This document shows, one piece after another, positions 5,290-10,031 of a stretch of DNA of 14,891 bases. The DNA is taken from positions 1 through 14,891 of the forward strand of contig CAKRPM010000005.1 of assembly GCA_934378025.1 (NCBI GenBank). Reading direction: 5' to 3'. Each line of letters opens with the position of its first letter. Within the stretch, counting starts at the first letter, position 1. Below the pieces are notes generated by a model, which worked only from the letters and a program-made list of their open reading frames with translations, ran no database searches and had not been told where the DNA came from. Source of the stretch: an uncultured Eubacteriales bacterium (lineage in GTDB: Bacteria > Bacillota > Clostridia > Oscillospirales > QAKW01). The position numbers were made by a program, and so were the translations under genes.

Positions 5290-5338
5290 GTAACCGTTCG
5301 GTAACTCTTATTATAGTGACCAAACGGTAACTTGTCAA
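5290..5338 (-). promoter_or_regulatory. Consensus promoter with two TetR operator copies
   Basis: On the minus strand TTGACA (5338-5333), a 17-nt spacer and TATAAT (5315-5310) make a perfect-consensus promoter. Two related 16-mers occur in the same orientation: GTTACCGTTTGGTCAC (5331-5316), which fills the spacer, and GTTACCGAACGGTTAC (5305-5290), just after the -10 box. Each is an imperfect palindrome of the GTTACCG...CGGTAAC type common for TetR regulators. Repeat-to-repeat distance is 26 bp. Occupancy of either would block RNA polymerase, so strong autorepression is the simplest reading. Confidence 0.88.
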
Positions 5339-5377: not shown

Positions 5378-6580
5378 TTATTCCATTGATTCTTTTAATA
5401 GCCTTTTATAGCTTAAATCGATCCCCAGTGCGCCGAGCGGTGCGGTGATCAGTATGCCGAGTACGGCGACCGAAAGGACAGCACTCCCGCAGGGAAGCCC
5501 CAAGGAGAGCGGTACAGAGCCGATTGCCGCTTGCACAGTCGCTTTCGGCAGATAGGCGATCACGCAAAACAGCCGTTCCTTGAGATTCAGTGATGTTTTG
5601 ATCAGGCAGAGTGCCACGCCGATCGAACGGAACAGAAGCGCTATGAATATCATTCCGACGGCGGTCACTCCGGCATCCAGCGTATAGCGGATGTCCACTG
5701 CCGCCCCGACCAGCACAAATAAAATGACTTCGGCGGCAAGCCATAGCTTGCCGAACTTTTCCGAGAGACGTTTTGTAACAAATTCGGCACTCTTGAGCTT
5801 CAAAAGGCACGCCATGCTGACGACGGCCAGGAGACCCGATACAGCAACTATCTTTTTCATCCATGTTTCGATTGCCATTAAAAGAAACGATAGGCCGAGA
5901 ATAATAATTACTTTTACGCTGTTTCGAATTGGATGCCCGTGAACGTATGACTTTTCAAAGAACAAAGCCAGTACCGATCCAAACACGGCGCCGACGGCAA
6001 CACCCAGTAAAATTGAAATCGGAATATTCAAAAAGTCAAGCAACCTTGCTTTTCCTCCCTGCGCCATGCCGATAAAGGTGGTAAAAAGCACGATGACAAA
6101 AATATCGTCACAGGATGCGCCGGCCATAATCAGCTGTGGAATACTCTTTTCCGTTCCGTATTTTTCATCCATCAGTCGCAGCATCCTCGGCACAACCACA
6201 GCGGGCGAAACGGCGCCGAGCACCGCCCCCATTAACGCGGCTTCAATGCGCGAAACACCTAAAAGCAACGGTGCAAAAAGGGTATACCCGAGGATTTCAA
6301 AGCTTGCCGGTACAAAGGACATCAGTACGGCCGGCCGTCCGACCTTTTTGAGATCGGATAGATTCAGCGACAGGCCGGCTTTTATTAGGATAATGATCAG
6401 CGCCATTTGTCGCAGCTGTGAGGATAGGTCGAGAATCTGCGGATCAAGCCAGTCCAACACATACGGGCCAAGCAGGACGCCGGTGATGATCATGCCGATA
6501 ATACGCGGCAGACGGATCCGTTCACAGATCGCCGCAAGGGATAATCCGACAAGAAAAATGAGTGACAGGGATGTTAACAT
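5378..6580 (-). CDS. Cation:proton antiporter, CPA2 type (SLC9B/NHA2-like), fluoride-riboswitch controlled
   Basis: This 400-residue inner-membrane antiporter has 12 or so membrane segments and no cytosolic TrkA/RCK domain, shorter than KefB/KefC. Diagnostic sites are SPAVVVP at 125-131 (the discontinuous helix), the adjacent acidic pair Asp158-Asp159 in GASCDDIFVIVLF (ion/proton binding in two-Asp CPA2 proteins), and YLPKATVQAAIGSVP at 343-357, the Lys-containing motif characteristic of NHA2-like members. CPA2 proteins exchange cations such as Na+ or K+ for protons. The start at 6580 has AGGAGGA about 8 nt upstream. The leader carries a putative fluoride aptamer with an overlapping terminator, so its physiological output is probably fluoride tolerance, either by moving F- or by ion/pH homeostasis during fluoride stress. 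No crcB/fluC or CLC-F gene is visible here. No clear terminator follows, and some read-through into TetR (5269) is possible. Confidence 0.92.
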   Translation of the reverse strand: MLTSLSLIFLVGLSLAAICERIRLPRIIGMIITGVLLGPYVLDWLDPQILDLSSQLRQMALIIILIKAGLSLNLSDLKKVGRPAVLMSFVPASFEILGYTLFAPLLLGVSRIEAALMGAVLGAVSPAVVVPRMLRLMDEKYGTEKSIPQLIMAGASCDDIFVIVLFTTFIGMAQGGKARLLDFLNIPISILLGVAVGAVFGSVLALFFEKSYVHGHPIRNSVKVIIILGLSFLLMAIETWMKKIVAVSGLLAVVSMACLLKLKSAEFVTKRLSEKFGKLWLAAEVILFVLVGAAVDIRYTLDAGVTAVGMIFIALLFRSIGVALCLIKTSLNLKERLFCVIAYLPKATVQAAIGSVPLSLGLPCGSAVLSVAVLGILITAPLGALGIDLSYKRLLKESME

Positions 6581-6603
6581 AAAAATTCCTCCTATAAACG
6601 CAG

Positions 6604-6648
6604 AAAAGCCGATGCCCTCTGCACCTAAAATGCAGAAGTCATCAGCTT
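6604..6648 (-). terminator. Intrinsic terminator overlapping the fluoride aptamer (expression platform)
   Basis: On the minus strand the arm AAGCTGATGACTTCTGCA (6648-6631) pairs with TGCAGAGGGCATCGGCTT (6623-6606): 17 of 18 positions pair, two as G-U, with a single A/G mismatch and a 7-nt loop. TTTTCT follows, a modest U-tract. The 5' arm is the conserved 3' half of the aptamer, so aptamer folding and terminator formation exclude each other. This predicts termination without ligand and read-through with ligand, an ON switch. The short U-tract is the weak point. Confidence 0.78.
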
Positions 6649-6692
6649 ATCATCAGCGGTTTCGGCATACGCCGCGGGAGAACTTCATTCCC
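6631..6692 (-). ncRNA. Fluoride riboswitch aptamer (crcB motif)
   Basis: Read on the minus strand from 6692, the leader matches the crcB consensus in order: GGGAATGAAGTTCTCCC (consensus GGNGAUGGNGUUCNCC), then AAACCGCT (AACCGC), then AGCTGATGACTTCT (GGCUGAUGACNCCU). The long-range helix is GAAGT with ACTTC, a compensated version of the usual GGAGU/ACUCC. A small CGGC/GCCG hairpin is inserted between the first stem and AAACCGC, at a position where the family tolerates an extra stem. GCT/AGC closes the 3' hairpin. The transcript start predicted from the promoter falls about 5 nt before the aptamer. The match is from memory of the consensus, not from a covariance search. Confidence 0.85.
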
Positions 6693-6703
6693 TTTTTGTA
6701 TAT

Positions 6704-6731
6704 ATTGTATCACCGAATTTCAAAAAGTCAA
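6704..6731 (-). promoter_or_regulatory. Promoter of the riboswitch-antiporter transcript
   Basis: On the minus strand TTGACT (6731-6726), a 16-nt spacer and TACAAT (6709-6704) form a good sigma-A promoter. The predicted start near 6697 is immediately before the aptamer. The -35 box begins 4 nt after the aldo/keto reductase stop codon, so the two units are packed with no terminator between them. Confidence 0.8.
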
Positions 6732-9917: not shown

Positions 9918-9965
9918 GCTGGCGGCCAAGTTGCAATAAAGAGAACCGCCAAGCGGAAAGCAACC

Positions 9966-10003
9966 AAAAAAGGGGAGCACTTTGCAAAGTGCTCCCCTTT
10001 TTT
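9966..10003. terminator. Bidirectional Rho-independent terminator
   Basis: GGGGAGCACTTTG (9972-9984) is followed directly by its exact complement CAAAGTGCTCCCC (9985-9997). The palindrome is flanked by six A (9966-9971) and six T (9998-10003). The symmetry gives a U-tract on both strands, so it can end both the MerR-GNAT-cyclase transcript (plus) and the MATE transcript (minus, stop at 10032). Confidence 0.95.
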
Positions 10004-10031
10004 GTATAACGAAAACCACCGGTAGTTATGA

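Follow-up and report, generated by a model that had tools for sequence, protein, structure and literature searches.

A fluoride riboswitch before a lone NHA2-like antiporter gene, and the recurrence of this pairing in Clostridia and beyond

According to the textbooks, bacteria defend themselves against fluoride by exporting it through Fluc or CLC-F. In the locus analysed here, part of a 14,891-nucleotide stretch of DNA (the window), a fluoride riboswitch instead precedes the gene for an NHA2-like antiporter, and this raises the question of whether proton/cation exchange alone is protective against the weak acid HF or whether the antiporter is a hidden fluoride transporter. A preliminary description of the locus had put forward both options; in our analysis the conserved cation site favours pH/Na+ exchange, while an inverse pattern of crcB occurrence keeps fluoride movement alive. 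The features of the locus are collected in Table 1.

Table 1. Features of the riboswitch-antiporter locus (window coordinates).
Feature	Position	Strand	Basis
Sigma-70-like promoter, TTGACT-16-TACAAT, extended TG	6704..6731	-	Consensus match only
Fluoride riboswitch aptamer, RF01734	6626..6701	-	46.3 bits, gathering cut-off 34, E 2.7e-10
Pseudoknot 5' side, GAAGT	6682..6686	-	Sequence; covaries with 3' side among relatives
Pseudoknot 3' side, ACTTC	6635..6639	-	Sequence; common to terminator 5' arm
Terminator hairpin (6648-6606) and short U-run	6604..6648	-	19 bp, -25.8 kcal/mol
Ribosome-binding site, AGGAGG	6588..6593	-	Sequence, by eye
NHA2-like cation/proton antiporter, 400 aa	5378..6580	-	PF00999 137 bits; best PDB relatives NHA2 7b4l/7p1i
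Promoter-like site for downstream TetR gene, TTGACA-17-TATAAT, 12/12	5310..5338	-	Consensus match

The leader had been described as a fluoride riboswitch with its conserved blocks in order and a compensatory GAAGT/ACTTC helix, and each of these points was borne out. When the whole window was searched with Rfam covariance models, RF01734 matched above its cut-off and over the full length of the model (positions 1-64 of 64), with the conserved blocks of the family present in the right order. We take the helix between GAAGT (6686-6682) and ACTTC (6639-6635) to be the pseudoknot of the fluoride aptamer class; it joins the first loop to the 3' strand, and the Rfam consensus at these places is GGAGU/ACUCC. 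The 94 pattern hits among fetched leaders comprised 69 with the GAAGT/ACTTC form and five with GGAGT/ACTCC (four preceding antiporters and one a MutS-like gene), along with 11 that were G-U paired, four with one mismatch and five that we took to be spurious. Since both forms pair in relatives and GGAGU is the consensus, the change in the pseudoknot is compensatory. It can also be seen, by eye and in the fold, that the variable region of the window aptamer contains an extra CGGC/GCCG helix; the 126-nt leader as a whole folds at -42.5 kcal/mol (z -3.37). A chance or artefactual match was ruled out by the RF01734 score and by recurrence among relatives.

The proposal that a terminator reuses the 3' half of the aptamer was likewise upheld, as the 5' arm of the hairpin is the 3' strand of the aptamer with one side of the pseudoknot included. 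The weakness of this expression platform is its U-run, which is short and interrupted (TTTT at 6607-6604, then CTGCG), and an automated terminator scan reported only the inner sub-hairpin at 6625-6611. Longer U-runs are found in many relatives, for example TTTTTTGCG, and in the hairpins listed the inner stem co-varies (TTCTGTGA with TCGCAGA, TTCTACGA with TCGTGGA), as judged by eye and unscored. After examination of 81 leaders, that of the window included, an overlapping hairpin followed by a T-run was seen in 52 of the 57 that passed a strict test for the conserved blocks. A seemingly different, two-hairpin arrangement was noted in the leaders of L004, L008, L013 and L057, and in the L014 leader the hairpin is present with a T count too low for the test. 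By taking only 57 of 81 leaders the block test proved too strict, and the linkage counts given below therefore rest on Rfam matches. The argument from overlap of aptamer and terminator is stated for the class in a passage of PMC2864571, and with the class as described there the window shares the full-length match, the pseudoknot and the overlapping terminator; it differs in the form of the pseudoknot and in the extra helix.

If transcription starts about 6 nt past the sigma-70-like promoter, the RNA would carry the aptamer at its 5' end; the scan for such promoters gave four sites in 1.6 kb against 2.2 in shuffles. The antiporter ATG, at 6580, follows the ribosome-binding site, and since the downstream TetR gene has a promoter-like site of its own, the antiporter may be transcribed alone. 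In this riboswitch class the aptamer becomes more stable once its ligand is bound, and termination is then prevented. We infer that the window riboswitch is an ON switch: the terminator would form when fluoride is absent, and when fluoride is present the aptamer would keep its 3' strand, the terminator would be blocked and the antiporter would be made. A separate near-perfect palindromic hairpin lies between the GGDEF and MATE genes of the window (9959-10010) and is probably a two-way terminator; microRNA matches to it were rejected as spurious, being produced by a palindromic hairpin and falling below the cut-offs of those families.

The antiporter itself had been described as NHA2-like, with a two-aspartate site and without an RCK domain, and comparisons of profile and fold agree. 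A profile built from 12 close relatives matched human NHA2 with 166 bits and bison NHA2 with 160, the next chains being 4czb (NhaP1) at 33 and 32 bits; the match spans residues 24-398 and begins at NHA2 residue 143. A structure predicted with AlphaFold2 (mean pLDDT 77.7; input of 55 rows with 70-86% identity to the window protein) was compared by Foldseek, and the top five matches were all NHA2 entries (TM 0.75-0.78). PF00999 was the sole domain found in the 400-aa protein, with no match to RCK/TrkA-N, PF02537 (CrcB) or PF00654 (CLC), and the absence of an RCK domain rules out a KefB/KefC-type CPA2 protein. The earlier remark that no other fluoride exporter is in view holds for the eight window proteins scanned. 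Residues E95, D158, D159, R318 and K346 align with human E215, D278, D279, R432 and K460, and in an alignment of 146 rows (145 homologues and the window) the first three are each kept in 145 and the last two in all 146. With the Na_H_Exchanger fold, its closest relation to NHA2 and the DD ion-binding pair D158-D159, the protein belongs with the SLC9B/NHA2-like antiporters. Its likeness to SLC9B2/NHA2 (7b4l, 7p1i) thus extends from the profile match and the best fold to an identical Glu/Asp-Asp/Arg/Lys site; unlike NHA2 it is bacterial, lacks most of the N-terminal part and stands under a fluoride riboswitch.

We take Arg431 of bison NHA2 to be the equivalent of human R432. That exchange by NHA2 is electroneutral despite the two aspartates is discussed through this arginine in part of PMC8850199. 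To judge from the conserved arginine the window antiporter is probably electroneutral as well, and it would therefore link the gradients of H+ and Na+ to each other, with no coupling to the membrane potential. The same conservation bears on the idea that the NHA2-like family moves fluoride itself, as HF or as F-, the latter alone or coupled with Na+ or H+, and so forms a third exporter family. An anion carrier should show altered residues at the ion site, and here the DD pair and the surrounding Glu, Arg and Lys are unchanged from NHA2, which speaks against direct transport.

In order to see how widely riboswitch and antiporter occur together, we surveyed several sets of loci and genomes. The first survey started from the 80 best of 380 loci that carry the gene (identity 70-81%), and whole genomes could be assigned to 50 of them. 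In 47 of these 50 genomes, which hold close homologues, a fluoride riboswitch scored above the cut-off, and by a simple pattern the 3' block lay within 400 nt upstream of the gene in 70 of the 80 loci; L004 and L057 have variant blocks, with Rfam matches just upstream. We looked for a conserved neighbour that could be what the riboswitch really controls in the 73 loci whose downstream sequence reaches 900 nt or more, and found none: a co-directional ORF began within 120 nt downstream in 30 of the 73, the largest cluster of such ORFs having seven members, so that the antiporter is usually a lone gene among the loci checked. This counts in favour of direct transport.

The second survey was an even draw of 343 Clostridia genomes, for which at least 95% completeness was requested, and 85 of them carry riboswitches over the cut-off, 104 in all. 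Directly downstream of these 104 there is an NHA2-like gene in 50 cases, crcB in 21, a CLC in at least nine and another gene in 24; the positions of CrcB and CLC genes relative to riboswitches were taken by hand from tables, and that for CLCs reached down to about 201 bits, so that the 24 may contain a few CLCs. No other gene thus follows fluoride riboswitches directly as often as the NHA2-like antiporter in the sampled Clostridia. The preliminary description had presented it as a target 'instead of crcB or CLC-F'; that is correct for this locus, but the implied exception is not one. An NHA2-like gene was called, at E values up to 1e-40, in 62 of the 343 genomes, with up to five candidates per genome scored for antiporter and CLC and up to 14 for riboswitches, so that some may be missed. 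The riboswitch lies 34-341 nt upstream of the gene in 49 of the 62, and in one more (G367) it heads a cluster with the NHA2-like gene about 2.4 kb further on. The other 12 have no over-cut-off riboswitch before or leading to the gene, and among them are three gene fragments and one riboswitch remnant of 19.9 bits. Fluoride control of the antiporter is therefore not obligatory.

Within the family of the nearest relative, the gene was found in 23 of 79 genomes and an over-cut-off riboswitch preceded it in 21 of the 23; one of the other two had a match of 30.4 bits and one had none. All five of the homologues tested from a plasmid collection (34-55% identity; records from Ilyobacter, Cetobacterium, Peptoclostridium, Acetoanaerobium and Picosynechococcus) also have the riboswitch with the gene, and the pairing thereby reaches two Fusobacteriota and a cyanobacterium, Picosynechococcus. 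A rare, one-off pairing was ruled out by these surveys, in which riboswitch and antiporter come together again and again, many times in bacteria of the gut.

The plasmid search yielded several further observations. In Peptoclostridium (L217:2329-4152) the order is fluoride riboswitch, CBS-domain ORF and antiporter, while on plasmid pAQ7 of Picosynechococcus PCC 7002 (L218:3001-4617) the antiporter, again linked to the riboswitch, carries a fused universal stress protein domain. Antiporter matches were found in 912 plasmid records, 736 of them from Klebsiella or Escherichia; among the matches listed, these Klebsiella and Escherichia records hold no more than the C-terminal part of a homologue, which covers 22-47% of the query at 55-64% identity, and in the one record viewed (L153:9001-9552) the piece adjoins rmtB. 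The Lactobacillus-group plasmid matches listed belong to a distant family, with 28-29% identity over about one third of the query, and were set aside.

A potential explanation that would not need to invoke any fluoride-stress role for the antiporter is that the riboswitch is a relic or senses something else. In a tree of 91 rows (L067 was dropped as short, riboswitch-bearing rows were thinned and all rows without a riboswitch were kept) the riboswitch is missing from 17, a share inflated by the thinning, and this absence counts for a relic. These 17 rows are scattered over the tree (15 changes against 15.9 in shuffles), and most deep branches carry the riboswitch, although G387, which lacks it, also branches early. 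We therefore read the association as old, with repeated losses. Full-scoring aptamers across phyla, compensatory changes and overlapping hairpins all weigh against a relic, and we consider this explanation very improbable.

Fluoride riboswitches were also seen in other settings. In L219 one precedes an NHA2-like gene that appears, by eye, to be broken. In a 4251-base locus (L169) the riboswitch at 3799-3728 on the minus strand precedes a 230-aa ORF, which is followed by a gene for a GGGtGRT-family protein (PF14057, 612 bits) and, further on, by an NHA2-like gene. A 230-aa ORF also follows the riboswitch in L232 and L233; the L232 product is weakly NifU/IscU-like (26 bits, below the cut-off), and by eye the copy in L169 resembles that in L233. 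In a further set of loci (L220, L221, L222, L223, L225, L228, L229, L231, L234, L235, L236 and L237) the genes near fluoride riboswitches include an opine-dehydrogenase-like gene, a MutS domain (L221 by Pfam, L223 and L229 by likeness), a dynamin-like GTPase (Pfam match in L231, resemblance in L235 and L236), a DUF6062 gene (L222), an ORF with SpoIIP behind it (L225), a PF00999 antiporter of a different kind (L228), a periplasmic binding protein (L234) and a GNAT protein (L237). Two or more fluoride riboswitches lie close together, in tandem or back to back, in G214, G295, G279, G361 and G380, and these are perhaps two-aptamer or divergent arrangements.

We then asked which other fluoride exporters accompany the pair. 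In the Clostridia survey crcB is present in two of the 62 genomes with the antiporter gene and in 81 of the 281 without it (Fisher p 2e-6, kinship ignored; one of the 83 positive genomes is below the cut-off), and within the family of the nearest relative it is present in none of 23 with the gene against 12 of 56 without (p 0.015, kinship ignored). A CLC of any type shows the opposite trend, with 40 positive genomes among the 62 that have the gene and 126 among the 281 that do not (odds 2.2, p 0.007), although not all of these are CLC-F. In the 50 genomes of the first survey CrcB is present in two and a CLC in 35, and of the 30 CLCs inspected 26 are CLC-F-like and four conventional. CLCs were typed by motif, save for two checked by profile: one GTN-type protein matched the CLC-F chain 6d0j with 192 bits, against 26 for the next protein, and one GND-type protein did so with 208 bits against 43. 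The GTN/GREGA CLCs had at first seemed doubtful as CLC-F.

The 49 Clostridia genomes with a riboswitch directly before the antiporter divide into 16 with neither CrcB nor CLC, 15 in which the only such gene is a CLC whose motif is unlike that of CLC-F, 14 with a CLC-F-like gene, two with CrcB and two with an unclassified CLC. A recognised fluoride exporter is thus absent from 31 of the 49, or 32 of 50 when G367 is added, absences that rest partly on draft genomes, which miss genes. By comparison, crcB or a CLC linked to a riboswitch is present in 30 of the 35 genomes that have a riboswitch and no antiporter, a count decided by seven riboswitch-linked CLCs of which only the G165 (L152) copy was read. 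With the two unclassified CLCs counted as exporters, an exporter is present in 18 of 50 against 30 of 35 (Fisher p 6e-6, kinship ignored; p 2e-5 with 29 in place of 30). Among the 62 antiporter genomes taken together, a recognised exporter is lacking in 40; a CLC-F-like gene is present in 17, CrcB in two and an unclassified CLC in three. The nearest relative (G001, a 1.5-Mb metagenome assembly) has a single riboswitch, before the antiporter, and neither CrcB nor CLC. The pair is also present without CrcB or CLC in named strains such as Faecalibacterium prausnitzii CNCM I 4541 (L031), Faecalibacterium gallinarum JCM 17207 (L052) and Kineothrix sp. MSJ-39 (L066). Enterocloster (L067), likewise without CrcB or CLC, was left out on account of a stop in the antiporter reading frame.

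The rarity of crcB beside the gene, both across the survey and within one family, and the frequent lack of a recognised exporter in genomes with the pair, set against its presence in most riboswitch genomes without the gene, are points for direct transport, and the antiporter could replace export directly. Against it, besides the cation site, stand the CLC-F-like genes carried by 14 to 16 of the 50 genomes with riboswitch and antiporter and the enrichment of CLCs of any type, in a comparison that ignores kinship. On balance we think it unlikely that the family moves fluoride itself. The fuller proposal, that riboswitch-linked NHA2-like antiporters would be a third family for export of F- or HF, with a fold unrelated to Fluc or CLC, and the sole dedicated defence in many gut Clostridia such as Faecalibacterium, is a little more doubtful still; if it were true, animal NHA1 and NHA2 would be kin of a fluoride transporter.

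The CLC counts bear equally on the suggestion that the exchanger only clears an acid load (H+ out and Na+ in, as NHE1 does) or other ionic side effects, and so helps a separate exporter. That CLC-F brings protons in is in its favour, and the CLC-F-like majority among the inspected CLCs of the first 50 genomes and the excess of CLCs of any type beside the gene point the same way. So does Clostridium difficile, where according to part of PMC11477304 one riboswitch precedes an operon of a CLC and an NhaP-type antiporter (CD0656-7). Compared by description, that antiporter stands like ours under a fluoride riboswitch, whereas it has a CLC in its operon and the window has a lone NHA2-like gene. Since CLC-F-like genes co-occur with the pair and this operon exists, the antiporter seems to work beside an exporter in part of the genomes, and the greater frequency of CLCs with the gene fits such a role there. 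As a general account, however, it has to contend with the many pair-bearing genomes that have no recognised exporter to help and with the rarity of crcB, and we regard it as improbable too.

The account that we favour, and hold to be rather likelier than its negation, is that a fluoride-activated ON switch drives a lone NHA2-type Na+(Li+)/H+ exchanger as an indirect defence. Fluoride comes into the cell as HF, and the greater the pH difference, the more of it is proportionally trapped as F-; exchange of H+ for Na+ would tie that difference to the Na+ gradient, and accumulation of HF/F- would thereby be limited and recovery from the acid load assisted. The antiporter could then substitute for a true exporter or act beside one. 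We prefer this to direct transport of F- because the NHA2 cation site is nearly invariant. An exchanger that extrudes H+ would raise the internal pH and so trap more F-, and protection would therefore depend on the direction of exchange. A review ties together the acid entry of HF, Na+/H+ antiporters and the ability of fluoride-acclimated yeast to tolerate a lower internal pH (PMC11139923).

That antiporters are a category of fluoride riboswitch target is already known: a passage of the same review, citing Baker 2012, places Na+/H+ antiporters next after exporters among fluoride-riboswitch genes and ties them to pH homeostasis (PMC11139923), and the window locus alone adds one member. The typical targets, Fluc/CrcB and CLC-F, are unrelated families, and the window gene matches neither. 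A further riboswitch-led fluoride defence is the Enterobacter cloacae FRM operon, described in part of PMC5533749 (ppaC, uspA, eno, gpmA, crcB); it resembles the window in this respect and differs in having CrcB and spare enzymes, and its uspA recalls the Usp domain fused to the Picosynechococcus antiporter. In a search mainly of open-access papers we found none that describes a family of NHA2-like proteins devoted to fluoride riboswitches, or the inverse crcB pattern.

The wider result, which deserves experiments, is that the gene most commonly linked directly to fluoride riboswitches in the sampled Clostridia is an NHA2-like antiporter, often in genomes without a recognised exporter. From these genomic patterns the exchanger looks like a standard, understudied fluoride defence, and the bacterial relatives of a medically interesting human exchanger gain a regulatory context.
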